Positions 16,213 to 29,343 of a stretch of DNA of 36,502 nucleotides are shown in pieces. Source of the DNA: a virus. The translations under genes were made by a program, and so were the position numbers. The first letter of the stretch is position 1. Every line of letters begins with the position of its first letter. Below the pieces are notes generated by a model. It made no database searches. It had not been told where the DNA came from and saw only the letters and a list, made by a program, of their open reading frames with translations. The stretch covers positions 1 to 36,502 of IMG/VR virus record IMGVR_UViG_3300011253_000831. One strand, written 5' to 3'.

Positions 16213-16447
16213 AGGCCCTCCCCTTGATTGTTACCCCATAGTAACAGAGGTAGCCCCGTGCGTACAAGGCTAAATTATTTTAGGTTAAACAGGGGGTTCG
16301 GGCGTGGCTTAGTATTTTATATATGTGATAGGAATTGTAACAGGCAAGTCCGCGTCTCCGGGGTACCCCCCTCCAAAGTAAAACACCCCCACCCCCTAAG
16401 TTAAGTGATAACGTATATTATGACAATGAAGGAATGACTATATAACA
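16213..16447. other. Divergent intergenic region with GC-rich blocks; possible packaging site
   Basis: This 235-bp gap separates the divergent late and early operons. In an otherwise AT-rich genome it contains unusually G/C-rich pieces: a perfect 10-bp palindrome GGGGTACCCC at 16360-16369, poly-C runs at about 16366-16396, and CGGGCGTGG near 16299-16306. It also holds the candidate late promoter. Location beside terS and the composition make it a candidate cos/pac or terminase-binding region. This is inference only. Confidence 0.4.
16318..16347 (-). promoter_or_regulatory. Candidate late-operon promoter upstream of terS
   Basis: On the minus strand TTGCCT (16347-16342) is followed after 18 bp by TATATA (16323-16318), which also runs into an AAAAT tract. 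This gives a start about 95 bp upstream of the terS ATG. It is the best sigma70-like match before the whole structural operon. The mismatched -35 suggests it may need activation. It does not contain the GTTATC pairs seen at the early promoters. Confidence 0.5.
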
Positions 16448-17106: not shown

Positions 17107-17153
17107 AGCCTTATTTATAATCATATATACTGTAATCCGCATGAAATAAGGCT
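17107..17153. repeat. 10-bp perfect inverted repeat, 27-nt spacer
   Basis: AGCCTTATTT and AAATAAGGCT are exact reverse complements, 35 bp upstream of the -35 box of the early promoter. On the plus strand the two arms can form a stem. A single regulatory or origin role is inferred from location only. Confidence 0.6.
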
Positions 17154-17188
17154 ATCTGAAGTTATTTAATATTTATCTGTTTATTTAC

Positions 17189-17218
17189 TTGACTAGTTAT
17201 CTTCAGTTATCTTATAAT
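17189..17218 (+). promoter_or_regulatory. Strong sigma70 early promoter with tandem GTTATC pair
   Basis: TTGACT (17189-17194) and a perfect TATAAT (17213-17218) are separated by 18 bp. The spacer carries two copies of AGTTATCTT whose GTTATC cores start at 17196 and 17206, exactly one helical turn apart. The promoter lies about 50 bp before the first gene of the early operon (17267). A bound regulator would sit between the polymerase contacts, so repression is the simplest reading. Confidence 0.8.
17196..17211 (+). promoter_or_regulatory. Candidate operator 1: GTTATC x2 at 10-bp spacing
   Basis: Two GTTATC hexamers start at 17196 and 17206 inside the early promoter spacer. The same arrangement recurs in the promoter at 23357-23385 (opposite strand, same orientation to transcription) and at 24395-24410. 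See the finding on shared operators. Confidence 0.6.
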
Positions 17219-17266
17219 GAATACATAGAGAGGAATAATCCTCCAGACAAATGAAAGGTTAATACA

Positions 17267-17581
17267 ATGGCTATAACAAAAACAGTAAATACAAGTGAGC
17301 TATACCACGACTTAAAACAAACAAGTGGTTATCAAAATAACTTCAGTTATGACGGTGCAAAGGCTCTAATGGAGTATCTGGGGCTACTAGCAGATGAGTG
17401 TGATATGAACATAGAATATGACCCTATTGCATTTTGTTGTGAGTATAGTGAGTATTCAAGCTTAGAGGATTTTAATAAGAATTATAACAGCGCTGCTCAC
17501 TTTGATAACTGGGAGCAGATTGAGGAAAATACAACTGTTATACGCTTTGGCATAGATCAAGCAATAGTACAAGACTTCTAA
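17267..17581 (+). CDS. Conserved-looking early protein of unknown function, 104 aa
   Basis: This is the first gene behind the strong early promoter, with an AAAGG ribosome site ahead of the ATG. It is a small acidic protein. The central phrase FSYDGAKALMEYLGLLADE, then YDPIAFCCEYSEYSSLEDFN and a late NTTVIRFG...AIVQDF end, matches a small protein family I have seen repeatedly in phages and plasmids with a DPIA(I/F)CC(E/D)(Y/W)(S/T)EY core. That family has no function I can name. Early timing and acidity would suit a host-takeover or anti-defence protein, but that is inference. Confidence 0.75.
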   Translation: MAITKTVNTSELYHDLKQTSGYQNNFSYDGAKALMEYLGLLADECDMNIEYDPIAFCCEYSEYSSLEDFNKNYNSAAHFDNWEQIEENTTVIRFGIDQAIVQDF

Positions 17582-17657
17582 CCTTAGACCGATAGAGTGT
17601 AGTAATGCACTCTATTAGCCTGCGATTAGACAGGGCAATAAATGAAAGGAAAAGACA

Positions 17658-17957
17658 ATGAAATACTCTTACTCAGACATACATGAGACTTGCTCCTATC
17701 AGGATTATGTAGACCAATACAACCCTATTAAATTAGAAGTTGGCGAGGTATATACACAACATCCTGATACTTGGGAAGAGACTGAATACAAGGTTATGTA
17801 TATACACAATAAAATAGCCTTTGCGGTTGAAACAAGATCAAAATATCCGGCAGTGACTAAAGAAGTTAATTATTGTCTCTTTTATGTAGATAGTGGTTTT
17901 AAATATAAAGATACTGTTAGGCCTTGTTACAGGTTACAAGCTATAAATAAAAAATGA
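17658..17957 (+). CDS. Early protein of unknown function, 99 aa
   Basis: The gene is preceded by ATGAAAGGAAAAGACA immediately before the ATG, a leader very like those of its neighbours at 17267 and 17971. The product is acidic, Tyr-rich (about 13 Tyr) and beta-rich, with the phrase EVGEVYTQHPDTWEETEYKV followed by KVMYIHNKIAFAVE. That suggests a small beta-barrel or SH3-like fold. Four cysteines are scattered and do not form ribbon knuckles. No family is recognised. It belongs to the early operon. Confidence 0.65.
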   Translation: MKYSYSDIHETCSYQDYVDQYNPIKLEVGEVYTQHPDTWEETEYKVMYIHNKIAFAVETRSKYPAVTKEVNYCLFYVDSGFKYKDTVRPCYRLQAINKK

Positions 17958-17970
17958 AAGGAAAACCACA

Positions 17971-18063
17971 ATGGCAACTTTAGAAAAACAAATCCTACTG
18001 CGTGAAATGAAAGACTTAATTGATGACATTAACAATGAGGCAGGTGTACTATGTGCCAAGTAA
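17971..18063 (+). CDS. Small helical peptide, 30 aa
   Basis: This short frame has a good ribosome site (AAAGGAAAACCACA before the ATG) and the same leader pattern as the two preceding genes. The peptide is almost wholly amphipathic helix (EKQILLREMKDLIDDINNE). Its 3' end overlaps the start of the next small gene by 13 bp. It could be a real early peptide or a coupling leader. Confidence 0.5.
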   Translation: MATLEKQILLREMKDLIDDINNEAGVLCAK

Positions 18064-18191
18064 CATATAAAAACTTTTACAGTGATTTAACTATTGCTGG
18101 TTCTTTGTTCTACTTAGGATTAGTCATAGGCTATAACAACATAGATAATGCTAATGATAACGGCAGTATCGTAAATCTATATATTAACTAG
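18051..18191 (+). CDS. Small single-pass membrane protein, 46 aa
   Basis: The frame starts at ATG 18051 inside the end of the 30-aa gene, with AGGCAGG upstream. The product has one hydrophobic segment (about residues 14-28, TIAGSLFYLGLVIGY) and a polar Asn-rich tail. It is one of several tiny membrane proteins in the early regions. Function unknown. Confidence 0.5.
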   Translation: MCQVTYKNFYSDLTIAGSLFYLGLVIGYNNIDNANDNGSIVNLYIN

Positions 18192-18207
18192 GAAAGCGAG
18201 CAAGACT

Positions 18208-18519
18208 ATGGCTGATTACTTTAACGATGGCGTATATTTAACCACACGTAACCGCAAGGGGCGCATTAGAAAATGGTTACTAACTGCCTCACTAATAACT
18301 AATGTTGTGCTTGGCTTGGCTTATGTTAACAAGCAACCCGAGGTTATAACCATAACCGAACACTCTGTTTATCAACCTAACAATGTTGAACAAAGGGCTA
18401 TAGCTTTGGACTACCTAATCAATCCACAAGGTAATCCAACAACAGTGCCGAGTAAACCAATAATTACACCCCACTCCCTAAGCGATAGCGTGGGAGAGGA
18501 GCGTAGCGAACTACCTTAA
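18208..18519 (+). CDS. Early membrane protein of unknown function, 103 aa
   Basis: A basic N-terminal region (about residues 13-22, TRNRKGRIRK) precedes one transmembrane helix (about 24-42, LLTASLITNVVLGLAYV), so by the positive-inside rule the C-terminal 60 residues should be outside the cytoplasm. The tail is Pro/Ser/Thr-rich and has no cysteines. AGGAAAGCGAG precedes the ATG. It is the last gene of the early operon, directly before a strong terminator. An envelope-acting role such as superinfection exclusion is possible but unproven. Confidence 0.65.
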   Translation: MADYFNDGVYLTTRNRKGRIRKWLLTASLITNVVLGLAYVNKQPEVITITEHSVYQPNNVEQRAIALDYLINPQGNPTTVPSKPIITPHSLSDSVGEERSELP

Positions 18520-18542
18520 GCCTTTCAGGTAGCACAACCTTG

Positions 18543-18577
18543 AACCCTCGTTAACATGTTTAGCGAGGGTTTCTTTT
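18543..18577 (+). terminator. Rho-independent terminator of the early operon
   Basis: AACCCTCG (18543-18550) pairs perfectly with CGAGGGTT (18564-18571) around a 13-nt loop, followed by TCTTTTAT. It lies 24 bp after the 103-aa gene. The stem and T-rich tail fit a classical intrinsic terminator on the plus strand. Confidence 0.8.
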
Positions 18578-18617
18578 ATGGTTTAACGGCGATATGACGA
18601 CCACTGAGGCCGTTCTG

Positions 18618-18630
18618 ATATGTTTTAGGT
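18618..18630 (+). repeat. 13-mer direct repeat, copy 2 (ATATGTTTTAGGT)
   Basis: Identical to 17060-17072. This copy sits between the early-operon terminator and the 3' end of the primase-helicase gene, so the two copies bracket the early operon. Confidence 0.55.
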
Positions 18631-18675
18631 GGAATGTATCACAAGACAATCTAAACGGGCTGTAAACGCCTTATA

Positions 18676-18744
18676 TTAGAAAGTAGCAGTTACTTTATCA
18701 AAAACACCAAAACCTGTAGAGAATTTATCAACTACGAACTTCAT
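18676..18744 (-). CDS. Possible 22-aa peptide after primase-helicase
   Basis: A short frame starts at an ATG inside the last codons of the primase-helicase gene (AATGAAGTT) and encodes a Phe/Val/Lys/Thr-rich peptide (KFVVDKFSTGFGVFDKV). Stop-start overlap would allow coupled translation. It has no dedicated ribosome site and is very short, so it is only a candidate. Confidence 0.3.
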   Translation of the reverse strand: MKFVVDKFSTGFGVFDKVTATF

Positions 18745-20194
18745 TAAACGAGCTATACCGGTTAGTTGATGTATTAAATACTAGGTCAAAGTCCTCACGG
18801 TTACTGATACCAAGCTTAGATCCGTACTTGCATTTCTCAACCCTGAGCGTACTAGTCCCCTCTTCATCGTTACGGTATATCACAAAACCAATGTTACACA
18901 TGTTGTTCCAGTTGGCAGAGTCTGAGATAGAATACAGGCTAGGGATTTTGTAGTTGCCGTCTTTGTCCTCGCTCATCTTTGTTGGATGGGCAACGATGCA
19001 TAGGTGGATGTTTAACCGCATAGCCATACGTCTAAACTCTCGTAAACATGCTGCTACGTACTTCGTGCCACTAAGCTCCATCTCGTTGTTCTCGTGGTCA
19101 ATCATATTCCAAGGGTCAATTATGACAAGCTTGGTGCCGAACCTTTTGACTGAGGTTTCTATGATTTCAAACAACCATTCAATGGATACGTCTTGCTCGT
19201 AATCTGGGAAGCAAAACGTGAAACTGTTGTTAATCCAATCGTTAGCCTCTTTGAGTTTAGCTTGTGATGCCTTGGTTGGGTCATCTTTGAGATACCAACG
19301 CTGTAGGTTTTCCTTGTGGTCCTCTTGTGGTGGATGTTCAAACGATGCAAACAAGGTCTTCCAGCCATAGTTCTGGCTTGCATGAGAAGCCCACTCAGTC
19401 ATAAACGTAGACTTACCGTGACCGGGTATCCCTGTGAATACTGACCATTCACCAAGCCTAACTTTAACCTTCTCTAGCCCATTAATACCTATATCAAACA
19501 TCTGCTTAGTTGGTATATCTGGTAGATCATCCATCTTGTGTAAACCGGGCACAGCAATGTATTTACCACGGGCTATTGTTGCTTGAACAGCCTCTATTCC
19601 GTAGGTTTGCAACACTTCGTTTAAATCTTTGCAACGGTCTTGTTTAGAATTATCCTTGTAGGGGTATTGTAAATACCTACAGCGGGATTTGCCGAGGCGG
19701 GCTGAAAGCTCGGCGAGCATCTCCATACCTGCTGGATCATTGTCCTGAGCGATTATAATATCTTCGTTATCGTTTATGTTATCAAGTATAAGCTGGATGT
19801 TATCATCGGATAGGCACTTAGAGCCATTCGGTACACTGACTGACCTGACGTGACCGGTCTGGATGGCAGTAATGCAATCAAACTCACCCTCAGTAATCAG
19901 TAATGACTGGTTGGTTGTTGTATCTAGGACAGCATCGGCGTTGAATAATGGCAATCCTGAGCCACCTTCTATCCTACAGTCGTGTTTATCTGCGATGTTG
20001 CGATACTTGGTATGGGTAGTTCCATAGGGAAATATAATATACTCAGATGCGTTTTGACCGGAGCTTCTTAAGCCCAGTCGTTCTGCTAGCTCTTGGTCTA
20101 GCCCTCTTTCCTCCAGAAAAGCTATCGTCCCCTGTGACAATGCCTCGGGCATCGCAATGGTTGCAACCGTAGATTGCTGTGTTGTCTGACTCAT
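18728..20194 (-). CDS. Primase-helicase (TOPRIM plus DnaB-like helicase), 488 aa
   Basis: A TOPRIM primase domain has LLITEGEFDC (Glu 102) and AQDNDPAG (about 149-156). A DnaB/T7 gp4-type helicase follows, with Walker A GIPGHGKST (255-263) and a Walker B-like KLVIIDPWN near 350, plus a VAHPTK motif later. In T7 gp4 a zinc ribbon precedes these domains in the same chain. Here the ribbon is in a separate overlapping gene. The start at 20194 is supported by GGGAG nine bases upstream and a TAA immediately before the ATG in this frame. It unwinds the fork and primes the lagging strand, presumably with a host polymerase since none is encoded. Confidence 0.9.
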   Translation of the reverse strand: MSQTTQQSTVATIAMPEALSQGTIAFLEERGLDQELAERLGLRSSGQNASEYIIFPYGTTHTKYRNIADKHDCRIEGGSGLPLFNADAVLDTTTNQSLLITEGEFDCITAIQTGHVRSVSVPNGSKCLSDDNIQLILDNINDNEDIIIAQDNDPAGMEMLAELSARLGKSRCRYLQYPYKDNSKQDRCKDLNEVLQTYGIEAVQATIARGKYIAVPGLHKMDDLPDIPTKQMFDIGINGLEKVKVRLGEWSVFTGIPGHGKSTFMTEWASHASQNYGWKTLFASFEHPPQEDHKENLQRWYLKDDPTKASQAKLKEANDWINNSFTFCFPDYEQDVSIEWLFEIIETSVKRFGTKLVIIDPWNMIDHENNEMELSGTKYVAACLREFRRMAMRLNIHLCIVAHPTKMSEDKDGNYKIPSLYSISDSANWNNMCNIGFVIYRNDEEGTSTLRVEKCKYGSKLGISNREDFDLVFNTSTNRYSSFNEVRS

Positions 20195-20336
20195 TTAATT
20201 TTACTCCCATACACTTTGTTTTTTGGTGGTGTTGTTTTCTGCTGTCTGAACAAAACGGACAGATGATGTACTGATTACCGGGTTTATCGGATATCCTCAT
20301 ACCCATATCCAGTAAGTTTTCTAAAAGCTTCTTCAT
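20043..20336 (-). CDS. Free-standing primase zinc-ribbon protein, 97 aa
   Basis: Paired cysteines CPFC (residues 26-29) and CNHC (58-61), with a further Cys at 42, form the zinc ribbon that normally begins T7-type primases and recognises the priming trinucleotide. ATG 20336 is preferred over 20342 because AGGAGG lies seven bases upstream. The 3' half overlaps the primase-helicase gene by 152 bp in a different frame, ending in an Arg/Lys-rich tail (GGKRARPRASRTTGLKKLRSKR). It probably works in trans with the TOPRIM-helicase. A +1 frameshift fusion product is also possible. Confidence 0.8.
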   Translation of the reverse strand: MKKLLENLLDMGMRISDKPGNQYIICPFCSDSRKQHHQKTKCMGVKLNESDNTAIYGCNHCDARGIVTGDDSFSGGKRARPRASRTTGLKKLRSKRI

Positions 20337-21039
20337 TCTCATTCCTCCTGTAGTTTAGTTTTAGCTGATTATGTTTTACAGCATGAACACCCTCTAAGGC
20401 TTCGACCATTGTTACTTTTTGAATCGCCCCTTGATAGTTTTCCCAGCATTCACCATTCAACCAAGAAGTAGGATGTTTGATATAATTTTTCTCAGTTTTA
20501 TTTTTAACGCATTCCTTGGCATATTTTTCAGCAGCTAAATTGATGGTAGAAACCTCTGTTTTTTTGATAGCAGTTTTGTAACTTTTCATAGCCTTTTTTT
20601 TATCGATCTTTCTCGGATAAACTTCCCAAAAATTATTAAAACTTTTTGCTGTTATATCTGTCTCTGTCTCTGTCTCTGTCTCTGTCTCTGGGGTTACGAA
20701 TCTGTACGGTTTCGTTACGGTTTCGTTACATCCGCTGTCAGCAACGGTTTCCGAAGAGCATATGAATCCTGCCTTAATTATCTCATTAATTCCATTTTTA
20801 ACGTCTTTTTCGGTAATTCTGAGCCTAAATGCGATCTTTTTTAGGTCGTCTTTTATCAGTCCAGAAGTAGGGTCTTCATCCTCACTTGCGAGGAGCCATA
20901 ACATAGGTAATAATGCCCTACCATTTACCCCCATAGATTGAAAATCATAGCAGTCTAAAAGTGTCTTATGAAGTCTAATCCAAGGGGGTCTTCTGTCTTT
21001 ATATGACTGGTATGAGGACCAGTTAGTCATCTTTATCAT
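20284..21039 (-). CDS. Replication initiator, phage O / DnaD-like, 251 aa
   Basis: The N-terminal 95 residues resemble a winged helix as in phage replication proteins (WIRLHKTLLDCYDFQSM, then LWLLASEDEDPTSGLI). A linker carries an (ET)n repeat at about residues 118-128. The C-terminal part has FWEVYPRKIDKKKAMKSY and YIKHPTSWLNGECW, a signature of phage DnaD-like or O-like proteins. These proteins bind the origin and load helicase. It is encoded directly upstream of the primase ribbon, which it overlaps, and downstream of a DnaA-like gene, which fits an initiation module. Confidence 0.82.
   Translation of the reverse strand: MIKMTNWSSYQSYKDRRPPWIRLHKTLLDCYDFQSMGVNGRALLPMLWLLASEDEDPTSGLIKDDLKKIAFRLRITEKDVKNGINEIIKAGFICSSETVADSGCNETVTKPYRFVTPETETETETETDITAKSFNNFWEVYPRKIDKKKAMKSYKTAIKKTEVSTINLAAEKYAKECVKNKTEKNYIKHPTSWLNGECWENYQGAIQKVTMVEALEGVHAVKHNQLKLNYRRNENEEAFRKLTGYGYEDIR
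20661..20690 (+). repeat. Hexanucleotide tandem repeat (TCTCTG)5
   Basis: Five perfect TCTCTG units encode the alternating Glu-Thr linker of the initiator protein. Since the unit is six bases, slippage would change linker length without breaking the frame. Confidence 0.85.
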
Positions 21040-21052
21040 GTTGCCATTTCCT

Positions 21053-21382
21053 TTATTTTCTTGCTTTTGGGTTAAAAGGTGCTGGTGCTGTTAACCATTT
21101 GATCCTTCTTTTTATTACCGCCTCCTCACTAAAATACTCATCCCCTGCCTTTTTTATTAGGTTCAGTACTGAGGAGTGGTGCCTATTGATAACCCCTCCT
21201 ATATCTTCTATTGTATGCCCTCGTTGCCTTAGAAATAAAGCAACCCTACGGCGTTTTAGTATTACAGATGCAGTAACTAAGGGCCCCCTTATAAGGATGT
21301 CGTTAGTCCCAACCGCAGCACAAGCAGTTTGGAAGTCTTGGTCTAAGGTTTCCCTACGTTTTGCTATATTTTCCTTATTCAT
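21053..21382 (-). CDS. DnaA C-terminal-domain-like DNA-binding protein, 109 aa
   Basis: Residues 44-78 (RRRVALFLRQRGHTIEDIGGVINRHHSSVLNLIKK) match the helix-turn-helix of DnaA domain IV, including the GRxHSTV-like signature (NRHHSSV). The AAA+ part is absent, so this is a stand-alone DnaA-C-like protein. In DnaA this domain binds DnaA boxes at the origin. Encoded next to the O/DnaD-like initiator, it may help recognise the phage origin or interfere with host initiation. Its stop lies 14 bp before the next start. Confidence 0.75.
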   Translation of the reverse strand: MNKENIAKRRETLDQDFQTACAAVGTNDILIRGPLVTASVILKRRRVALFLRQRGHTIEDIGGVINRHHSSVLNLIKKAGDEYFSEEAVIKRRIKWLTAPAPFNPKARK

Positions 21383-21618
21383 CTATCTTCTCCTAAATTA
21401 TGGTAATTGCTAATGTTATTAATTAATGTGTGAAGTGCCTCTACAGCTATTTCATATTCTTCTATAGGCTCTATAGCCTCAAGAGACACTATGTTATTAG
21501 TTGTCTTAGTCTTGAATAACACCATCCCATCCAGTAGTTCTTCTAAGTCCGTTGCCTCGATTTGCATAGTTAAATATTCCAAGGTTAATAAACATTCTTT
21601 TAAGGTCATACTACTCAT
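21379..21618 (-). CDS. Unknown small acidic protein, 79 aa
   Basis: This is an acidic, Leu/Glu-rich protein with helical segments at both ends (LKECLLTLEYLTMQIEATDLEELLDG and YEIAVEALHTLINNI). The stop overlaps the start of the DnaA-C-like gene by 4 bp. No domain is recognised. Membership of the replication operon is clear, but its role is not. Confidence 0.6.
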   Translation of the reverse strand: MSSMTLKECLLTLEYLTMQIEATDLEELLDGMVLFKTKTTNNIVSLEAIEPIEEYEIAVEALHTLINNISNYHNLGEDR

Positions 21619-21916
21619 CTCTTAACCCCTCGTTTAGTATTTTTAATCTTTGGAACACTGATTTATTTATATCTTTCGACCATTTAATAGGGTCATCATA
21701 ATCCCCACAAAGCGGTGGAGTTTCTACAGCATTAATAACCTCATCATCAAGGCGTTTGAGGGCAATATTAACTTGCTTGTGTAACTCGCTCTCTACAAGA
21801 CTAGGTTCAAGCATTAACTTACATGCTTTAAGTGTATCCCTAGCCTCTATAATCGCTCCTTTAGTAGCCTGTGAAACAGGCGGTAACGTCGTAGACGTTC
21901 CTTTAGTGTGGGTCAT
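21611..21916 (-). CDS. Unknown protein in replication operon, 101 aa
   Basis: This is a mostly helical protein (ATKGAIIEARDTLKACKLMLEPSLVESELHKQVNIALKRL). Helical stretches of this kind are common in phage proteins of unknown function. It overlaps both neighbours by 8-14 bp, showing tight coupling. No catalytic motif, ribbon or membrane segment is visible. Confidence 0.6.
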   Translation of the reverse strand: MTHTKGTSTTLPPVSQATKGAIIEARDTLKACKLMLEPSLVESELHKQVNIALKRLDDEVINAVETPPLCGDYDDPIKWSKDINKSVFQRLKILNEGLRDE

Positions 21917-22154
21917 TGTTTTGCTCCGTTAATTTATCGCCAAGTTTAAATAACAATTCCATCTCTTCACGGTGGTCTTGTACTAATCTAGAGGCACTAG
22001 ATTTAAAAATATTATCGTATGTTGTAAACTTTACATCATCACCATCAATTACAGCTTTATTCCTTGCTAAAACCGCTTTTCTCGCACGTTCAAACCATTG
22101 TTTGGCTGTCCATCCATCACAATTAGAAAACCAATCTGTTGTGTCTTCACCCAT
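21903..22154 (-). CDS. Unknown protein in replication operon, 83 aa
   Basis: This is a Trp-containing N-terminus (TTDWFSNCDGWTAKQWFERA) followed by charged helices. The stop overlaps the start of the next gene by 14 bp. No family is recognised. Confidence 0.6.
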   Translation of the reverse strand: MGEDTTDWFSNCDGWTAKQWFERARKAVLARNKAVIDGDDVKFTTYDNIFKSSASRLVQDHREEMELLFKLGDKLTEQNNDPH

Positions 22155-22159
22155 ACCCC

Positions 22160-22405
22160 TTACTCCTTTTCTAGTCTCATTTCTTTAATGCTTTTTAACC
22201 AAATATAATCACCATCAATAATTATATTCCTACCTTTACATCCCTCTACAATTCCTCTTCTAGGGAGAAAATAACCTCTTCCAGATTTGTCAATATCAAT
22301 ATCACGTAAATATTCAACCATATTACCGATAAGAGGTTGTATCTCCGCCTTGTTATTAGGGGTAATATTCTCCCCTCGTAAAAGTTGGTTATTACCCTTG
22401 CTCAT
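22160..22405 (-). CDS. Unknown protein in replication operon, 81 aa
   Basis: This is an 81-aa basic protein with a Gly/Arg-rich middle (DIDKSGRGYFLPRRGIVEGCKGRNIIIDGDYIWLKSIKEM). That is a beta-rich pattern with an arginine patch, suggestive of nucleic-acid contact. Its ATG overlaps the 3' end of the HNH endonuclease gene by 14 bp, so it depends on read-through from that gene. No family recognised. Confidence 0.6.
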   Translation of the reverse strand: MSKGNNQLLRGENITPNNKAEIQPLIGNMVEYLRDIDIDKSGRGYFLPRRGIVEGCKGRNIIIDGDYIWLKSIKEMRLEKE

Positions 22406-22928
22406 TCTCTAACCTCCAAATTTTAGTTTTTCTATTATGGTTTTTATGGTAATTAAAATCTTTCTCTATACTATTTCTCAATTTAATAGCATCCTCCATT
22501 CTTTCAAAAGAGCCTAAATAATATTCTTTCTTATTTTTAGAAGCCCTTACCTCCCACCTCCTTGATCTTTTACTATATGTTACCCCCGAGCATTTACTTA
22601 CACTACTATCCCTTACTCTTGCGTTCTTTTGGTTTCCAGAGCAAGTTACTACTCGATGGTTTTCTTCTCTATCATCTAACGTATCACCATTTATATGGTC
22701 TATCATCCCATCTGGGTCTTCACCTGTTCGCATCTTCCAAAGCAGTCGAGAACAAAAATAATGTTTCCCATTAAAATATAATCTCCTATAACCAGATTTA
22801 GTTATGCTACCTGCTACAGCCCCTATTTTTATTTTCTTACTTGATGTCTTCTTCCAATAGATAACATTATCTATCACATAAAAATGTTCAATTAATTCCT
22901 TGTAATCTGGCAATGGCTTTATAAACAT
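22392..22928 (-). CDS. HNH homing-type endonuclease with AP2 DNA-binding domain, 178 aa
   Basis: An N-terminal loading region precedes an HNH_3 core with DHINGDTLDDREEN (about residues 77-90) and a distal NQKN (99-102). A C-terminal AP2-like domain (about 115-155, GVTYSKRSRRWEVRAS...YYLGSF) follows. This domain pair is typical of free-standing phage homing endonucleases. The usual DNRxxNLR is altered to DDREENHR, which could affect activity. It is inserted between small genes of the replication operon, and its own end overlaps the next gene. It probably spreads by cutting related phages lacking it. Confidence 0.88.
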   Translation of the reverse strand: MFIKPLPDYKELIEHFYVIDNVIYWKKTSSKKIKIGAVAGSITKSGYRRLYFNGKHYFCSRLLWKMRTGEDPDGMIDHINGDTLDDREENHRVVTCSGNQKNARVRDSSVSKCSGVTYSKRSRRWEVRASKNKKEYYLGSFERMEDAIKLRNSIEKDFNYHKNHNRKTKIWRLENEQG

Positions 22929-22990
22929 CTCACACCCTCAATCATTGTAAGGATATGCTTGCACTCGTCTATTTTATCTTGTGGGGTCAT
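22919..22990 (-). CDS. Possible 23-aa leader peptide before HNH gene
   Basis: An ATG overlaps the stop of the lipoprotein gene (TAATG), and the short frame ends inside the first codons of the HNH gene. The peptide (TPQDKIDECKHILTMIEG) is helical. It may be a genuine microprotein or a translational coupling device that controls endonuclease expression. Confidence 0.4.
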   Translation of the reverse strand: MTPQDKIDECKHILTMIEGVRCL

Positions 22991-23172
22991 TACCTGCACT
23001 CCACTACATTGTTGCCTTTATCATACTTAACTGATGCGCCATTAGTAAACTGGATATACACAACCCCATTAATACAATGCTCACTATAGCCTTTTGTGTA
23101 TGCTGTTGCTTTATCAAACCAACCACAACCAGACAAACTAATTAATGCTATTAATAATAAATACTTCATCAC
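22990..23172 (-). CDS. Small lipoprotein, 60 aa
   Basis: A signal peptide with lipobox LSGC (residues 13-16) starts MMKYLLLIALIS. After lipidation a 45-aa domain with two further cysteines remains (EHC...VECR), which may form a disulfide. Such early small lipoproteins in some phages (for example T5 Llp) block receptors against superinfection. That comparison is functional analogy, not homology. Its ATG overlaps the stop of the 52-aa gene (TGATG). It is the second gene behind the strong promoter at 23357-23385. Confidence 0.75.
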   Translation of the reverse strand: MMKYLLLIALISLSGCGWFDKATAYTKGYSEHCINGVVYIQFTNGASVKYDKGNNVVECR

Positions 23173-23327
23173 TTACCTCTTGCTTTCTCTACCACTTGTT
23201 TTGCGTTATCCATTGTTTTTCTAAAATCACTAATAACATAATATCCAATTTTCTTAGTAGAATAAGGTGTGTCCTCTATATACCTCTCTACCACGCCCCA
23301 AGGTGTCGGTGTGTGTTTATCTGTCAT
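23169..23327 (-). CDS. Unknown protein, first gene of the replication operon, 52 aa
   Basis: This small frame starts at ATG 23327 with a very good ribosome site (AAAGGAGTATAGA) about 30 bp downstream of the strong promoter. The product is basic (pattern WGVVERYIEDTPYSTKKIGYY, then MDNAKQVVEKARG) and alpha/beta. Stop and the next start overlap (TGATG). No family recognised. I trust it because of promoter proximity, ribosome site and coupling. Confidence 0.65.
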   Translation of the reverse strand: MTDKHTPTPWGVVERYIEDTPYSTKKIGYYVISDFRKTMDNAKQVVEKARGK

Positions 23328-23356
23328 TCTATACTCCTTTGTTTCTGTCTATCTAT

Positions 23357-23385
23357 TGTATAACCCTAGATAACCAACATGTCAA
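23357..23385 (-). promoter_or_regulatory. Strong sigma70 promoter of the replication operon, with GTTATC pair
   Basis: On the minus strand TTGACA (23385-23380) is followed after exactly 17 bp by TATACA (23362-23357). The spacer carries GTTATC (23374-23369) and a second near-copy GTTATA (23364-23359) one helical turn later, overlapping the -10 box. This is the same arrangement as at 17189-17218. Transcription would begin around 23350, about 25 bp before the first start codon. Confidence 0.8.
23359..23374 (-). promoter_or_regulatory. Candidate operator 2: GTTATC/GTTATA at 10-bp spacing
   Basis: Read in the direction of transcription, GTTATC then TAGG then GTTATA. The spacing and orientation relative to transcription are the same as operator 1. 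The second copy has one mismatch, shared with the -10 box it overlaps. Confidence 0.55.
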
Positions 23386-23404
23386 CAATTAAATGTAATA
23401 AATA

Positions 23405-23446
23405 TAAAAAACCCCGGTAGTATGCCGAGGCAGGGACATCCGGGGT
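23405..23446 (-). terminator. Rho-independent terminator after the SSB-like gene
   Basis: Minus-strand ACCCCGG (23446-23440) pairs with CCGGGGT (23417-23411). The loop contains an extra small stem (TGCC/GGCA), and T's follow directly. It separates the RusA-SSB transcript from the replication operon promoter a few bases downstream. Confidence 0.8.
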
Positions 23447-23474
23447 CAAGCTTCAAACTATGTATGGTTTTAGT

Positions 23475-23840
23475 TTAGAAAGGTATATCATCTGGTGTTA
23501 TAACCGCCCCTGCCTGAACAGGCGGTGCTACAGGAGGTTGTGGTGCATATGCTTGCTGGGCCGTAACAGGTTGAACTGCTGGCTGTTGGGCAGGTGCAGT
23601 ATTGTTGTACTTAGCTACATTAGCCATACGTCGTTGTTCGTCTTCAGCTGTCCAAGGGTTAAATGTTGCACGTTTATATACTGAGTTATCGCCTTGGTTA
23701 ATCTTATCTGCCGATACATTAATCTTCCATTTAACACCAGCTATTTCTACGGTACCAAAAAAACTACCCGGTTCTGCTTGTGGGTGAGTTGATGGATTTA
23801 AATACCCTGAGTTAGGATTTTTTGTAAAAGTTTGTGTCAT
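23475..23840 (-). CDS. SSB-like single-strand DNA-binding protein, 121 aa
   Basis: The C-terminus ends in DDIPF, the acidic tip by which bacterial SSBs bind partner proteins. It is preceded by a long Pro/Gln/Ala-rich disordered linker (about residues 80-115). The N-terminal 70 residues are a compact beta-rich part (GSFFGTVEIAGVKWKINVSADK) that could be a minimal OB-fold, shorter than standard SSBs of about 110-residue domains. It should coat unwound DNA and recruit host replication proteins. A ribosome site AAAGGAGACAAAC precedes the ATG. Confidence 0.75.
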   Translation of the reverse strand: MTQTFTKNPNSGYLNPSTHPQAEPGSFFGTVEIAGVKWKINVSADKINQGDNSVYKRATFNPWTAEDEQRRMANVAKYNNTAPAQQPAVQPVTAQQAYAPQPPVAPPVQAGAVITPDDIPF

Positions 23841-23873
23841 GTTTGTCTCCTTTGTTTAAACTTTATGACGATT

Positions 23874-23885
23874 GAATGGACATTC
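23874..23885. promoter_or_regulatory. Palindrome GAATG-GA-CATTC over the SSB promoter
   Basis: Perfect 5+5 inverted repeat around a 2-bp centre. It overlaps the -10 box and predicted start site of the SSB promoter, the usual place for a small dimeric repressor site. Confidence 0.4.
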
Positions 23886-23910
23886 TATGATTATTCTCTG
23901 TTATTTACAA
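23882..23910 (-). promoter_or_regulatory. Candidate promoter for the SSB-like gene
   Basis: Minus-strand TTGTAA (23910-23905), 17-bp spacer, TAGAAT (23887-23882). Start would fall near 23875, leaving a 35-nt leader with the ribosome site. The GTTATC pair is absent here. Confidence 0.45.
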
Positions 23911-23913
23911 GGA

Positions 23914-24309
23914 CTACTTTAACCTTCCTCTCCAAACATCACCAAAGCTTTCAATCTCCACCTCTATCCTTGGGTTAATTCTGTCTACCGGCATAACAAC
24001 TGCGCTGGGCATCTTTGGCATGTGCTTAGTATTATCATCTGGGATCATCCCTCGCTTAACCATAGCATCACACAAGAACTTATCTTGTATACATATAACA
24101 TTCATTATATCAAACTTCCGTTTGGATGCTGGATATATCTTATAATGAAGCCTTATCTTCTCATACCTTCTATATGGTATGTCTAAGGACATAAATATAT
24201 CTGAATAGTTTCGCTTTGCTGCGCTAAGTACCCTGTGGTGAGTGTTTCTATAGTTGTTTAAATTTAAAATAAAGAATTTATTTTTACTTACTCTAACCTT
24301 TAGTGGCAT
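23914..24309 (-). CDS. RusA-like Holliday junction resolvase, 131 aa
   Basis: The pattern FDIMN (Asp 67, Asn 70), DKFLCDAM (Asp 76, Asp 81) and IPDDNTKHM (Asp 91, 92) fits the spaced acidic residues of RusA family nucleases, as does the basic, beta-strand N-terminus. Length is near RusA (about 120 aa). It would resolve recombination branches or trim branched replication DNA before packaging. It is divergent from the exonuclease operon and upstream of the SSB-like gene on the minus strand. The match is moderate, since flanking motifs are diverged. Confidence 0.72.
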   Translation of the reverse strand: MPLKVRVSKNKFFILNLNNYRNTHHRVLSAAKRNYSDIFMSLDIPYRRYEKIRLHYKIYPASKRKFDIMNVICIQDKFLCDAMVKRGMIPDDNTKHMPKMPSAVVMPVDRINPRIEVEIESFGDVWRGRLK

Positions 24310-24368
24310 TGAAAACTTGATGGTTTCTCTCCTAAATAGTTCCTGTATTTTAGAATAACTTAAAAATA

Positions 24369-24407
24369 AACTATTGCATACAACAATAAGCTATGTTATC
24401 AATAGTT
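24369..24407. repeat. 8-bp inverted repeat AACTATTG / CAATAGTT
   Basis: Perfect arms at 24369-24376 and 24400-24407, 23 bp apart, in the 139-bp divergent region between the RusA-like and plus-strand operons. It overlaps the GTTATC pair. It could be an operator or chance in AT-rich DNA. Confidence 0.35.
24374..24402 (+). promoter_or_regulatory. Candidate promoter of the large plus-strand operon
   Basis: TTGCAT (24374-24379) and TATCAA (24397-24402) are 17 bp apart, with TG one base upstream of the -10 (extended -10). The match is weaker than at the other two GTTATC promoters. The -10 overlaps the first GTTATC copy. Promoter calling here depends partly on the shared operator. Confidence 0.45.
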
Positions 24408-24410
24408 ATC
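24395..24410 (+). promoter_or_regulatory. Candidate operator 3: GTTATC x2 at 10-bp spacing
   Basis: Two perfect GTTATC copies start at 24395 and 24405, oriented with the plus-strand operon that follows. Third occurrence of the arrangement at 17196 and 23374. Confidence 0.6.
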
Positions 24411-24448
24411 ACTAGGTATTAAGTTAAAGCTAGCAAAGGGGTACTATA

Positions 24449-24751
24449 ATGACACAATTAGAACTAGGTTTGGGTGGGGTAAGGTTTTTAACAATGTCGT
24501 CTCGTGTCGAATGGATTAAAAAAGTTAGAAGGGAACCAGTAAGCAGAACTAATGGTTATGATATATGGCCCTTACCTAAATTAATGAAGGATGAGGATAT
24601 GGTTTGTTTATATGATGGACAACGGTATGAGGATGTAGAGGTCGCTGAGAAAAATATACCTATAATCGTACCAAGTGCAGCACAACTTAAAGCAGGGACT
24701 GCAACTGTTTATGGTGCTGGTCCTAGCGCAATGATGATGGAGATGGAATAA
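24449..24751 (+). CDS. Unknown protein upstream of exonuclease, 100 aa
   Basis: First gene of the plus-strand operon, with AAAGGGG 7 bp before the ATG. The product has basic patches (SRVEWIKKVRREPVSRTNGYD) and a Met/Glu end (MMMEME). Its TAA overlaps the ATG of the exonuclease gene (TAATG), so they are probably translated together. It could be a partner of the recombination nuclease in the position of an annealing protein, but it is too short and lacks the known beta/Erf or RecT motifs. Confidence 0.65.
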   Translation: MTQLELGLGGVRFLTMSSRVEWIKKVRREPVSRTNGYDIWPLPKLMKDEDMVCLYDGQRYEDVEVAEKNIPIIVPSAAQLKAGTATVYGAGPSAMMMEME

Positions 24752-25398
24752 TGTTAATATATGATGGGTTGGAACAAGGGTCGGATGCTTGGCTTAAGAT
24801 ACGCTTAGGTATACCGACAACCAGTAGTTTTGGTAAAATAATAACCCCTTCTGGTAATAAGTCAGGGCAGTTCGATAAGTATTTAACTGAGTGCTTAACG
24901 CCGTATATATTTGGTAGGGCTCAAGAGTTTGTTAAAACAAAACCTATGCAAAGAGGAAACGATTTAGAACCAGAGGCTGTGGAATGGTATGAAAGATATA
25001 CTGGGATTAAGACCAAAGAAGTTGGTTTTATAACAACTGATGATGGAACTGTAGGCTGTTCGCCAGATCGATTAGTTGGTAGTAATGGTCTATTGGAGGT
25101 TAAGTGTCCGATGGAAAACCAGCATACTGTAAATCTAGCTAGCGGTAAAATTGACCCCAAATACATACCCCAAGTACAAGGGCAACTGATGTTATCTGGT
25201 AGAGATTGGTGTGACTGGCTGTCATACCATCCAGATGCCCCGGCATCACTAGTTAGAGTGGAGCCTGACGAGGACTTCCAAGAAGAGTTAAGAAGGTTAC
25301 TAACTGACTTTACTACCAAGTTAGTAAATCAAGTTAATGATATGACGGCACGTGGTATAGATCTTAAGATGGCTTTACCAACAAGGAGCGAGGGTTAG
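24751..25398 (+). CDS. Lambda-exonuclease-type (YqaJ) recombination nuclease, 215 aa
   Basis: PD-(D/E)XK fold. QGSDAWLKIRLG at the start (about residues 9-20), RGNDLEPEA (about 68-76), CSPDRLV with the catalytic Asp (about 108-114), LLEVKCP with the Glu-x-Lys pair (about 119-125), and QVQGQLMLSG (about 146-155). These are the classical motifs of YqaJ and lambda Exo proteins. It digests one strand from double-stranded ends to leave a 3' tail for annealing. The upstream gene has no recognisable annealase, so a partner is missing or novel. Length is normal. Confidence 0.92.
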   Translation: MLIYDGLEQGSDAWLKIRLGIPTTSSFGKIITPSGNKSGQFDKYLTECLTPYIFGRAQEFVKTKPMQRGNDLEPEAVEWYERYTGIKTKEVGFITTDDGTVGCSPDRLVGSNGLLEVKCPMENQHTVNLASGKIDPKYIPQVQGQLMLSGRDWCDWLSYHPDAPASLVRVEPDEDFQEELRRLLTDFTTKLVNQVNDMTARGIDLKMALPTRSEG

Positions 25399-25400
25399 TA

Positions 25401-25601
25401 ATGTTTACAATAATACGTACCAAGAAGCTTAAAAAACTCGAAGCCAACAAGAAACAAGCCCACCAGTATATAGATACACTATGCTTGGAGAATAAACGTT
25501 TCTGGCAGAAGTTATCAGACTTAGGATATTCTTGGGGTGAGATTATGGAAGTGCAAAGCCCAGTTGAAGAAAGTAACGTAATTAAATTTAGGACGAGATA
25601 A
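25401..25601 (+). CDS. Small coiled-coil protein, 66 aa
   Basis: This starts right after the exonuclease gene. The first half is Lys/Leu-rich helix (TKKLKKLEANKKQAHQYIDTLCLENKRFWQKL) with heptad-like spacing, followed by a GYSWGEIME phrase. The stop overlaps the next start (TAATG). The function is unknown; a partner of the exonuclease is possible. Confidence 0.6.
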   Translation: MFTIIRTKKLKKLEANKKQAHQYIDTLCLENKRFWQKLSDLGYSWGEIMEVQSPVEESNVIKFRTR

Positions 25602-26029
25602 TGACAGATGAAATAGAACATAGTAAGCGAAGCTTACAGTCTTCAAGCGAAGCGATGAAGCAGATTGATGATGCTATTGAGTATATTAACCATAAGTTTA
25701 AAGATGTGTTTGAACAAAAAATAACAATCCTCACAGCCCTAAACTACTTAAAAGAAAGCGTTGAGGGGGAACAGCTAGACGAGAACGGTTTGAAGCCTTG
25801 TCCGTTTTGTGGGGCACATGATGTGTTTGTGGAGCGAATGGAGTTAGAGGCTTCTGCTGTTTTTTGCAATAACTGTATGTCTTATGGGATTACATGCAAT
25901 ACAGAAGATGAAGAAGAAGCAAAACTTATTGATAAAAACGATGATTTATGGGGCGGTTATTATTCAGCAATCAAAGCTTGGAACACCCGCCCAACAACAA
26001 AAACCCTAGAAGAATGGATGAAGAGATGA
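25601..26029 (+). CDS. Lar-like restriction-alleviation ribbon protein, 142 aa
   Basis: The C-terminal half carries LKPCPFCGAHDV (about residues 67-78), a CNNC knuckle (about 97-100) and the end phrase SAIKAWNTRP, the hallmark of Lar family proteins. The N-terminal 60 residues are an added helical region (DEIEHSKRSLQSSSEAMKQIDDAIEYINHKF), which is unusual for Lar. In the known Rac Lar, the protein relieves EcoKI-type restriction by affecting modification. Two further Lar-like genes lie nearby. Overlap with the next gene is 4 bp. Confidence 0.8.
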   Translation: MTDEIEHSKRSLQSSSEAMKQIDDAIEYINHKFKDVFEQKITILTALNYLKESVEGEQLDENGLKPCPFCGAHDVFVERMELEASAVFCNNCMSYGITCNTEDEEEAKLIDKNDDLWGGYYSAIKAWNTRPTTKTLEEWMKR

Positions 26030-26178
26030 GTAACGCTGACCGTATATTAATTGTAATAAGTTTATCTTGTTTAATAGGTGCTTGTATGTGTTTGAAGTAT
26101 ATGACCGACCAAAATAAACAGAGTATAGCTACTATAGAGGCTCAATTGGAGGTATTGAACAATGACCAACAAAACTAA
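26026..26178 (+). CDS. Small single-pass membrane protein, 50 aa
   Basis: ATG 26026 overlaps the TGA of the Lar-like gene (ATGA). A longer reading from 25948 would lie mostly inside that gene and is less likely. One hydrophobic segment (about residues 7-22, LIVISLSCLIGACMCL) is followed by a helical Gln/Glu tail. Two cysteines fall within the membrane stretch. Unknown role. Confidence 0.6.
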   Translation: MSNADRILIVISLSCLIGACMCLKYMTDQNKQSIATIEAQLEVLNNDQQN

Positions 26179-26482
26179 CCCCCAAGGAGCGGTAGCGACC
26201 CACCAGAACTTGTTGAATGATGTTAGGGGAGATTTTAATGATTTATTAAATGATGTTATAAATTTTGCAAATGAAGAGCAGTTTCTTGATAGCACTTTAG
26301 AAAAATCAACTAAAACAATACAACGCCTAGACGCTTTCCTTGCTGCTGTTGATTTTGATGAGTTTAGTAAAGCATTAGAAGATGTGTCTTGGGGCTATCC
26401 CTATTCAGATAAAAGCAAGCGTAAGTGTGATGATGTTTTAAAGCTCCTCAAAGCAGCAACAACAGAGAATGAGGGGGCGTAA
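26162..26482 (+). CDS. Unknown protein, 106 aa
   Basis: A helical, acidic Asp/Asn/Leu-rich protein (LLNDVRGDFNDLLNDVINFANEEQF). GGAGG lies 9 bp upstream of the ATG inside the preceding gene. The tail is Lys/Arg-rich near YSDKSKRKCDDVLKLLK. No domain recognised. Overlap with the next gene by one base shows coupling. Confidence 0.6.
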   Translation: MTNKTNPQGAVATHQNLLNDVRGDFNDLLNDVINFANEEQFLDSTLEKSTKTIQRLDAFLAAVDFDEFSKALEDVSWGYPYSDKSKRKCDDVLKLLKAATTENEGA

Positions 26483-26664
26483 TGGATAACAAAGAACCGT
26501 TTTTTAATATAAAAATAGAGTATCCAGTCAGATTTTGGTTGCTAACCATATATTTTATATTCCTTTTCTTCATCATGTTACCTGCATCTTTTATGAATAA
26601 CGAAGAGCGAGCAAAGGTGTATCCGTATTTATTTGAAGAACAACAAAACCAAGCGAGGAAATGA
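26482..26664 (+). CDS. Small membrane protein, 60 aa
   Basis: ATG follows the preceding stop (TAATG). The product has a single hydrophobic span (about residues 18-36, FWLLTIYFIFLFFIMLPAS) with short charged ends (FNNEERAKVYPYLFEE). It could be a small envelope protein. It is one of at least four tiny membrane proteins in the two plus-strand operons. Confidence 0.6.
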   Translation: MDNKEPFFNIKIEYPVRFWLLTIYFIFLFFIMLPASFMNNEERAKVYPYLFEEQQNQARK

Positions 26665-26816
26665 TGAAAATACTTAAAAAAATATTATGTAAGATAGGTT
26701 GGCACAGCATATTTGCTGGTTTTGAGACAACTGGTCATGATGGTTGTAGTGTACATGCAAAATGTAAGTGGTGTGGCTATAAAGGTATGATTGATAGTCA
26801 AGGTAATTTATTTTAA
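26661..26816 (+). CDS. Small zinc-ribbon protein resembling DUF1660, 51 aa
   Basis: Frame starts ATG ATG 26661, overlapping the previous stop by 4 bp. It encodes HDGCSVHAKCKWCGYKGMIDSQGNLF, with the CxWCG(Y)xG and DSQGNLF end I associate with small phage DUF1660-type proteins. Cys/His pairs would bind one zinc. The function of that family is unknown. Confidence 0.65.
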   Translation: MMKILKKILCKIGWHSIFAGFETTGHDGCSVHAKCKWCGYKGMIDSQGNLF

Positions 26817-26829
26817 AGGAGCAGAAGTG

Positions 26830-27294
26830 ATGGAAGATAAGACGAAAGAGGCTTTGGAAATGTTTAACTCCACAATAATGGAGCAAAGAATATCAGAAGA
26901 TGAATCTTTATATTTCATTGGACGAACACAAGTGAGATTTACTCATATCGAATCAATCCGAGAAGCCCTAACCACTAAGCAAGCGGTTGATGTGGATAAG
27001 TTACAAAAGGAATGTATAGAGTATGGTAAGGAACAGTTTACTGCTATGTTCGATAATCCTAATATAGCTGTTTGTAGACTATCTGTTTACTTGGCAATAG
27101 ACTACCTTTCCCAACAAGGGCTTTTGAATGGTGGGTGGCAACCTATCGAGGAAGCTTTTCTTGCTGGATTTAAAATAAGCGGTGAAGGTTGGAATGGGGA
27201 ATATCCCCACGAAGGAGAAAATGATAGCGTTATTTGGGAAGATATTAAAGAATCTTTTGAGGATTACCTAAAACCACCAAAAGAGGAGGTGTGA
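26830..27294 (+). CDS. Unknown protein, about 154 aa
   Basis: ATG 26830 is preferred because AAAGGAG lies 8-9 bp before it. A start at 26791 would overlap the ribbon gene. The protein is acidic and helical, with the phrase GWQPIEEA (about residues 112-119) and a Glu-rich C-terminus (EDIKESFEDYLKPPKEEV). Two cysteines. I do not recognise the family. Confidence 0.6.
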   Translation: MEDKTKEALEMFNSTIMEQRISEDESLYFIGRTQVRFTHIESIREALTTKQAVDVDKLQKECIEYGKEQFTAMFDNPNIAVCRLSVYLAIDYLSQQGLLNGGWQPIEEAFLAGFKISGEGWNGEYPHEGENDSVIWEDIKESFEDYLKPPKEEV

Positions 27295-27488
27295 TTGTGA
27301 GAAAGTGTTCGAAAGGTCACGATGTTAAAATCATTAATATTGATTTATCTGTGCCTTATAATAACGAAAAATATAAAGATATGTACCAAGTCAGGTGTGA
27401 TGTTGAAAGTAACACCTGTGAATTTTCTGAATATTATTACAACAAAAGAGATGCTATTCACGGATGGAATATAAGGGAGTTACTTTAA
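27291..27488 (+). CDS. Second Lar-like ribbon protein, diverged, 65 aa
   Basis: Starts at GTG 27291 (or GTG 27297) overlapping the previous stop. It carries RKCSKGHDV, CDVESNTC and ends with YYNKRDAIHGWNIREL, which mirrors the AIxAWNxR end of Lar proteins, although the first knuckle is CSKGH and not CPFCG. Probably a degenerate Lar-family member with two remaining zinc-binding pairs. Confidence 0.55.
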   Translation: MIVRKCSKGHDVKIINIDLSVPYNNEKYKDMYQVRCDVESNTCEFSEYYYNKRDAIHGWNIRELL

Positions 27489-27489
27489 A

Positions 27490-27819
27490 ATGACACAAAA
27501 AGATGAAACAGAGCAATCTCGGAACGAATTGCGGGGTGAAAGCCTTATGCCTAGGGAGATATGGGCTTGGAATGTAGACCACGATCAAGGCTGTTGGGAC
27601 TTGGAAGATGAATATCCAATAGAGGGTTGCAGAACCCCCTACATACTAAAGTCAGAGTATAATAAGCAAACCGATCGTGTTGGAGAGCTAGAAATAGTTT
27701 TAAGAAAAGCTGACTATCTACTAAAAGATACTGGTATGATTACTAACGATAGCTGGATGCATCAACAAATACAAATAGCGTTAACCACAGCCCTAAAGAA
27801 AGGTGAAGACGATGAGTGA
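27490..27819 (+). CDS. Unknown protein, 109 aa
   Basis: Starts just after the second Lar-like gene, with AAGGGAG ten bases upstream of the ATG. The N-terminal half has WAWNVDHDQGCWDLEDEYP, Trp- and Asp-rich, followed by helical stretches (VGELEIVLRKADYLL). No named domain. Its end overlaps the third Lar-like gene by 8 bp. Confidence 0.6.
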   Translation: MTQKDETEQSRNELRGESLMPREIWAWNVDHDQGCWDLEDEYPIEGCRTPYILKSEYNKQTDRVGELEIVLRKADYLLKDTGMITNDSWMHQQIQIALTTALKKGEDDE

Positions 27820-28147
27820 GGAATTAAAACCGTGTCCGTTTTGTGGTTCAAGAGACGTCGGTGGTGTTGGTGGTAAGGCATCAGATAGGCATCAAGCTTA
27901 TAGCTATATAAATTGTTATGGCTGTAAAACAGATATTAAATATAAAGGTGGTATAGATAACGCAATCAAAGCTTGGAACACACGCAACCACGACAAGCTA
28001 ATTGAGCAGATTGAGGGGATGAAGGTGTATAAGGACCATATGATTATATGCAGGGAACATGATAGTGCCCTAGACGATGTAATTAAACTTATTAGAGGGG
28101 TATCAGAGATACCACCGTCTGTTACACAGACTAAAAGAGGAGAGTGA
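27812..28147 (+). CDS. Third Lar-like restriction-alleviation ribbon protein, 111 aa
   Basis: Opens MSEELKPCPFCGSRDV, followed by a YINCYGCKTDIKY knuckle and DNAIKAWNTRNHD, the complete Lar pattern: CPFCG, CxxC, then AIxAWNxR. The start ATG 27812 is chosen because AAGGTGAAG precedes it. The last 50 residues are an extra helix absent from short Lar proteins. Together with the genes at 25601 and 27291 it makes three members of the same fold within 2.6 kb. Confidence 0.8.
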   Translation: MSEELKPCPFCGSRDVGGVGGKASDRHQAYSYINCYGCKTDIKYKGGIDNAIKAWNTRNHDKLIEQIEGMKVYKDHMIICREHDSALDDVIKLIRGVSEIPPSVTQTKRGE

Positions 28148-28150
28148 GTG

Positions 28151-28598: not shown

Positions 28599-28635
28599 CA
28601 AGTTGTAATTCCGTCAGTATAGAAAGGTTAAGGAA

Positions 28636-29008: not shown

Positions 29009-29164
29009 ATGAGAGTAACGGTATTAAGATATGAGAAGAAGTTTAATTTAGGTAATTATGAGTCAGAGACGGTGGGTATAGAACTAGCGTTGTCAGAAGA
29101 TGAAAAAGCTTCCACAGCGCTAGTTCATGCTAAAGCCTTTGTAGAGCAGGGAGCAAAGCAATGA
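29009..29164 (+). CDS. Small unknown protein, 51 aa
   Basis: Frame begins ATG at 29009 and ends with a TGA that overlaps the next ATG (ATGA). The product mixes beta (VTVLRYEKKFNLGNYESETVGIEL) and a helical end (TALVHAKAFVEQGAK), as in small alpha/beta phage proteins. No family recognised. Accepted because of the coupling with the following HTH gene. Confidence 0.55.
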   Translation: MRVTVLRYEKKFNLGNYESETVGIELALSEDEKASTALVHAKAFVEQGAKQ

Positions 29165-29343
29165 GTACATTTTTAACAACAGCAGAGCTGGCTGAGAGAT
29201 GGAGAACATCAGTTAATAAACTGGCGAATGATAGATCACTAGGTCGTCCTCACCCAGAATATTTTAAGCGTGATCGTACAGTCCTCTATCCTTTAGAGGC
29301 AGTAGAAAAGTTTGAGACTGATGGAATACGAAACGGCAACTGA
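29161..29343 (+). CDS. AlpA/excisionase-like helix-turn-helix protein, 60 aa
   Basis: The pattern TTAELAERWRTSVNKLANDRSLGRPHPEYFKRDRTVLYPLEAVEKF is that of the MerR/AlpA/excisionase-type winged HTH: a leading helix, recognition helix, then a wing with YPLEAVEKF. Sixty residues is typical. In other phages such proteins are Xis or transcription regulators. As no integrase is seen, a regulatory role is more likely, and it is one candidate to read the GTTATC operators. It is coupled by ATGA to the preceding gene. Confidence 0.7.
   Translation: MSTFLTTAELAERWRTSVNKLANDRSLGRPHPEYFKRDRTVLYPLEAVEKFETDGIRNGN

Follow-up and report, generated by a model that had tools for sequence, protein, structure and literature searches.

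Can a single small phage protein govern several operons of a virus through one common operator? This question is raised by a stretch of 36,502 nucleotides (hereafter the window), positions 1 to 36,502 of IMG/VR virus record IMGVR_UViG_3300011253_000831, in which tandem copies of the hexamer GTTATC at 10-bp spacing are found at three promoters, P1, P2 and P3, the last of them a probable one (Table 1). Judged by its capsid and connector, the phage is an uncultured podovirus of the MEP301/HTVC010P type, which provides its nearest cultured relatives (major capsid protein and connector 35-36% identical to the MEP301 proteins), and it is apparently lytic and of marine type. Four closer uncultured relatives (G001-G004) were identified, and one of these, G001 (34,056 bp), is collinear with the window across the early half.

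A tandem operator shared by three promoters

The presence of a shared tandem operator at three promoters is real and beyond chance. The GTTATC pairs start at 17196/17206 (plus), 23374/23364 (minus, second copy GTTATA) and 24395/24405 (plus), just where an earlier note on this DNA had placed them, and the three operators (O1, O2 and O3) all lie within short noncoding gaps at operon heads. The exact arrangement GTTATC-N4-GTTATC has only two copies in the whole record, at O1 and O3. When both strands of the whole record were scanned with a matrix, O1, O2 and O3 were the top three sites (20.2-23.8 bits), against a null of 0.00 per genome at 20 bits or more. A weaker pair, O1b, which was left out of matrix construction, belongs to the P1 promoter region as well, 45 bp 5' of O1.

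Two tests with Markov simulations were made. The strict one, in which one hexamer has to give at least two exact and at least three one-mismatch pairs at one lag in different curated gaps, was reached in 2 of 2852 simulations when all lags 7-25 were counted, and never at lag 10. The looser one (at least three gaps, at most one mismatch) was reached in 53 of 400 simulations (13%) over all lags and in 4 of 400 at lag 10. Since the looser test is often reached by chance, the case rests mainly on the two exact copies. The comparison of GTTATC pairs with simulated sequence, which the earlier note had named as a check, therefore came out in favor of its claim, with the three sites at the top genome-wide and the strict pattern not reached at lag 10. 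General enrichment of lag-10 repeats was not found in the window gaps (0.287 versus 0.266-0.294 at other lags). Homologs of early gene 17267 (24 loci) have unrelated surroundings, and upstream tandem sites were not noted there by eye. The GTTATC hexamer itself occurs in 37 copies in the whole window versus 19 expected, mostly on the plus strand opposite late genes, and this excess probably reflects codon usage rather than operators.

P1 and P2 are near consensus, as had been claimed, and the placement of the repeats between or over the -35 and -10 boxes is solid for these two; for P3 this part of the claim is softer, because P3 is weak by consensus. The offset of the repeats from the -35 and -10 boxes is different at each of the three promoters, so the repeats are an added signal and not themselves promoter elements. 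Behind O3 lies a third, degenerate copy (GGTATT at 24415-24420), and the O3 region is the best three-copy lag-10 repeat among the window gaps (18/24; chance 0.07 at lag 10). Promoters activated by MerR have 19-20 bp spacers. A classical MerR activator would have a palindromic operator in such a spacer, while direct repeats and spacers of 17-18 bp are found here, and the MerR-activator reading was rejected for its wrong spacer length and operator symmetry. The replication operon read from P2 (minus strand, genes 23327 down to 18728) includes a replication protein and a primase/helicase, and the operon behind P3 (24449-30595, plus strand) carries exonuclease, Lar-like, Dam-type methylase, PDDEXK and endolysin genes, thus running from recombination to lysis.

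Table 1. Promoters, operators and candidate regulator genes in the window, and the corresponding sites in G001.
Feature	Position	Strand	Description
O1b, upstream weaker pair	17151..17166	+	GCTATC TGAA GTTATT; rank 4 tandem site genome-wide, 14.1 bits; null 0.37 per genome
P1, promoter	17189..17218	+	TTGACT-18-TATAAT; heads early operon 17267-18519; best sigma70 match, 11/12, within 15-31 kb
O1, operator	17196..17211	+	GTTATCTTCAGTTATC (GTTATC TTCA GTTATC); entirely in P1 spacer; 23.8 bits, best site of the genome
Alternative reader	21053..21382	-	109-aa helix-turn-helix (HTH) protein, weakly DnaA domain IV-like (NRHHSSVLNLIKKA); in replication operon
P2, promoter	23357..23385	-	TTGACA-17-TATACA; heads replication operon 23327-18728; just past terminator-like hairpin behind SSB-like gene
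O2, operator	23359..23374	-	GTTATCTAGGGTTATA (GTTATC TAGG GTTATA); P2 spacer into -10; one mismatch; 20.2 bits
P3, probable promoter	24374..24402	+	TTGCAT-17-TATCAA, TG extended -10; heads operon 24449-30595; weak versus consensus
O3, operator	24395..24410	+	GTTATCAATAGTTATC (GTTATC AATA GTTATC); overlaps P3 -10; 21.4 bits
Proposed reader	29161..29343	+	60-aa winged-helix (HTH_17/Xis/BldC-type) protein; encoded in P3 operon
P1' (G001)			behind 16679 ortholog
P2' (G001)			behind SSB-like gene and its terminator
P3' (G001)			divergent from RusA, ahead of exonuclease operon
Members of best G001 triple	L037 12287; 9028; 7806		ATCATTTTACATCATTACAC; TTCACTATGCATCACTACAC; TTCACTTTATATCACTATAC, respectively

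Layout and half-site at the promoters of relatives

The earlier note had also made its claim depend on finding the pair at the same promoters of related phages, and on this point it failed as worded: GTTATC pairs were found in none of the four relatives, and only the layout, with another half-site, is conserved. Since G001 is collinear with the window across the early half, its promoters (P1', P2' and P3') could be matched by gene context. A 10-bp direct repeat, WTCAYTWTRYATCAYTAYAC, which is unlike GTTATC, is common to the three orthologous promoters. When the best triple of 20-mers was searched for among nine G001 gaps with the spacing unconstrained, it consisted of exactly P1', P2' and P3', each member being itself a 10-bp direct repeat, and its 46 of 60 pairwise identities were not reached in any of 300 simulations (maximum 45). 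The P2' repeat is placed within TTGACA-17-TACACT, in the same manner as the P2 repeat within its promoter. The G001 motif runs in the direction of transcription at P2' and in the opposite direction at P1' and P3', and this mix of polarity suits occlusion. Just 3' of P3', a tRNA-like stretch with a T-arm-like GGTTCGAATCC (L037 7690-7800, minus strand) was observed, which is not called by ARAGORN.

At the early promoter of G004, three AAGG(T/A)A units at 10 bp directly follow TTGACA (20/24, the highest among lags; p 0.016 at lag 10 and 0.10 over lags 7-14), which is weaker support than that from G001. One tandem motif recurring across the whole of G004 was not found. Judged from these comparisons, the 10-bp spacing and the promoter location are kept among relatives while the half-site letters drift, as expected of a co-evolving phage regulator. 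The proposal that one regulator serves three promoters by way of a 10-bp tandem operator is well supported. Other repeats of G004 are GTTAGTGTTA-type repeats recurring in leader regions (L041 8980-8998, 9812-9832 and 5623-5645) and the 20-mer TAGAGGTATTATTATACCAT, exactly repeated in two structural gaps (about 13556 and 16351).

A candidate reader, the proposed circuit and its rivals

The best candidate, and most likely the reader of O1-O3, is the 60-aa winged-helix-turn-helix (wHTH) protein encoded at 29161. Its gene lies between the same neighbors, before a PDDEXK_14 gene, in the window, G001 and G004, and the HTH_17 domain (PF12728) was detected in the G004 protein (E 3.3e-13, 50.1 bits, above the 27-bit cut-off) and below the cut-off in that of G001 (E 8.7e-4, 20.0 bits). 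In 12 relatives that are more distant, HTH_17 was not detected; a scan for further wHTH slots by means of the neighboring gene gave G001 and G004 only; no convincing further homolog was found among the open reading frames (ORFs) of all the loci examined; and no other HTH was recognized among the G001 early genes scanned. The predicted start of the recognition helix differs among the three genomes (RTSVNKL, PFTEGSL and SLSKSTL), which would suit changed half-sites.

The AlphaFold2 model of the window protein (predicted local distance difference test score, pLDDT, 85) has the beta-alpha-alpha-beta-beta-alpha order of a winged-helix fold and stops after the third helix, so that the protein appears to consist of a wHTH only, with neither a coiled coil nor a sensor domain. 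Its best solved match in Foldseek was the excisionase RdfS (8dgl; template modeling score, TM, 0.77-0.78 normalized by query length, 30% identity over 54 columns), followed by BldC bound to DNA (6ama, TM 0.64-0.66) and P2 Cox (4lhf, TM 0.66). The suggestion in the earlier note that an AlpA-like HTH protein at 29161 might be the reader has therefore gained strong indirect support, from synteny in G001 and G004 and from these predicted structural matches. Since a tyrosine integrase (PF00589) was found in none of the three genomes (window phage, G001 and G004), a role as excisionase is unlikely and a transcriptional role is most likely.

Direct repeats spaced by roughly one turn of the helix, at three window and three G001 promoters, are what regulation of the Apl/Cox/BldC type would lead one to expect. 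Coliphage 186 Apl and P2 Cox are small phage proteins of wHTH fold that serve as recombination directionality factors and, in addition, control early promoters; their sites, direct repeats spaced by 10-11 bp, lie over these promoters, which Apl/Cox repress, in the case of Apl pR and pL of 186 (PMC7498355). However, 186 and P2 are temperate, with integrase and attachment (att) sites, and 186 has seven repeats at pR-pL, whereas the window phage has two to three per promoter at three separate operon promoters. BldC, a MerR-like family of Streptomyces, is likewise a wHTH alone without coiled coil and binds head-to-tail to direct repeats one turn apart (PMC5859096), but it is a cellular developmental regulator, its 9-bp repeats are AATTXXXX(C), and its identity to the 29161 protein in structural alignment is about 20%. 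Each monomer of RdfS, from ICEMlSymR7A, occupies about 10 bp (PMC11963761); this protein differs in driving excision of an integrative and conjugative element with an integrase, in having an additional N-terminal helix, and in showing no clear consensus motif. For MEP301, which has no RNA polymerase gene (PMC8024684), the annotation lists neither a wHTH regulator nor such operators, and an automated gap scan of low sensitivity did not find a recurrent tandem motif. The operator and regulator of the window would be of the known Apl/Cox/BldC kind, in a new setting.

We consider it fairly probable that the GTTATC pairs serve as operators for a single phage wHTH protein, likely that of 29161-29343, which would cooperatively repress P1, P2 and P3 and thereby also itself. 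We infer the identity of the reader, the cooperativity, the repression and its timing as follows. Host sigma70 polymerase would start P1, P2 and P3 at entry, and the P3 operon would yield the 60-aa protein, which would accumulate as infection proceeds. Each 10-bp repeat would take up one monomer, with binding cooperative, head-to-tail and on the same face of the DNA, and pairs or triples of monomers would shut P1, P2 and P3, their own source included. Because the repeats fill the P1 spacer, enter the P2 -10 box and cover the P3 -10 box, the bound protein would exclude host sigma70 RNA polymerase; since its gene belongs to the operon behind P3, its own production would be turned down along with expression of the early and replication operons. 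Activation at some promoters, notably weak P3, is less likely. Going further, with somewhat more doubt than confidence, we propose that an integrase-less lytic podovirus clade recruited an excisionase-fold wHTH protein as a dedicated multi-promoter autorepressor, and that close relatives came to differ in the half-site with spacing and promoter positions unchanged.

Several points weigh against autorepression by this protein. The window protein scores only 13.9 bits with HTH_17 (E 0.07), below the 27-bit cut-off, and the best Foldseek E-value of its model is 5e-3, the fold being small. All four close relatives lack GTTATC pairs, the strong replicate comes from one relative only, G001, and the list of G001 gaps was put together when repeats had already been spotted by eye. 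Weaker copies of the G001 motif in three more gaps (12654, 4218 and 852) are slightly above chance, and the extra sites are merely suggestive (4 at 16/20 or more versus 1.65 expected). P3', like P3, is weak by consensus. An automated intergenic control over nine genomes gave no signal; its gap list missed several known sites, and since the ORF caller had absorbed these, the control is uninformative.

Of the alternatives, the one that survives best is a host regulator of tandem repeats about 10-11 bp apart, such as an OmpR/PhoB-family response regulator, which might couple early transcription of the phage to the state of the host. The direct repeats bound by OmpR/PhoB-type response regulators are spaced near one helical turn, and the phage, with its near-consensus sigma70 promoters, seems reliant on host RNA polymerase. 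Response regulators are also named as other binders of such direct repeats (PMC5859096). However, two phages whose terminases are 77% identical differ in the half-site and agree in the layout, so that different hosts or regulators would have to be assumed, and the syntenic phage wHTH protein would be left without a target, so we regard a host reader as unlikely.

Less likely still is a reading of the TTATC half-sites, which resemble the DnaA box TTATCCACA, by the DnaA-domain-IV-like 21053-21382 protein or by host DnaA, with transcription linked to replication in this way. GTTATC matches the start of the box, the 21053 gene lies in the P2 operon beside replication genes, and its product gave matches to Pfam Bac_DnaA_C (E 0.007, below cut-off) and phrog_27829 (E 0.028). 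The CACA half of the box, however, is missing from the operators; TTATNCACA boxes with 0 or 1 mismatch were found at none of the three operators; and a counterpart of the 21053 protein was not found in G001 or G004, though the layout persists in G001. The single-sequence model of this protein (pLDDT 49) is unreliable and was not used. Since DnaA boxes show no excess (42 versus 50 expected) and a six-frame search found DnaA_C in none of the three genomes, the DnaA-box reading was rejected as the main explanation.

It is about equally improbable that the wHTH protein, though it reads the sites, is mainly an activator or a DNA-bending architectural factor. DNA bending is known for RdfS and Apl-like proteins, some of which activate promoters (PMC7498355, PMC11963761), and P3, as a poor promoter, might need help. 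Nevertheless, P1 and P2 are close to consensus as they stand, and their repeats fall within the RNA polymerase footprint; the spacers are shorter than those of MerR-activated promoters, and in G001 the motif has no fixed polarity with respect to transcription. That the pairs recur by chance in A+T-rich promoters is very improbable, for although tandem 10-bp pairs per se are not enriched in gaps and the looser test is met at the rate given above, the strict test, the independent fourth site O1b and the independent recurrence of the layout at three orthologous G001 promoters all speak against it.

The three-promoter operator set and its plausible 60-aa reader form a directly testable circuit in podoviruses of the HTVC010P/MEP301 kind that have no RNA polymerase gene, for which transcription timing appears unstudied. 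The 29161 case suggests that an excisionase-type fold may serve purely in transcription regulation. The kept layout with altered half-sites between relatives offers a small system for co-evolution of wHTH regulators and their sites, and half-site rewriting in integrase-less podoviruses, if true, would constitute a natural series of regulator-operator co-evolution.

The record and other elements of the genome

The two ends of the record (window 1-1507 and 35029-36502) carry parts of one gene, that for an internal virion protein, which is a single 1008-aa ORF in G001. Because both ends carry parts of one gene, the record probably represents an almost complete genome, circularly permuted and cut within this gene, and the junction probably has a frame break, with perhaps some tens of bases lost. 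Two small structural proteins (9195-9503 and 12522-12824) both match L038 12427-12738 and appear to be paralogs. A noncoding element 5' of the putative small terminase gene (16213-16440, minus strand) is strongly conserved in four relatives; it consists of ATTCCTATCA-ACATATA-AATACTAG, with G-runs and an ACCCCG block before it, and is likely to be a cos/pac site or a late promoter.

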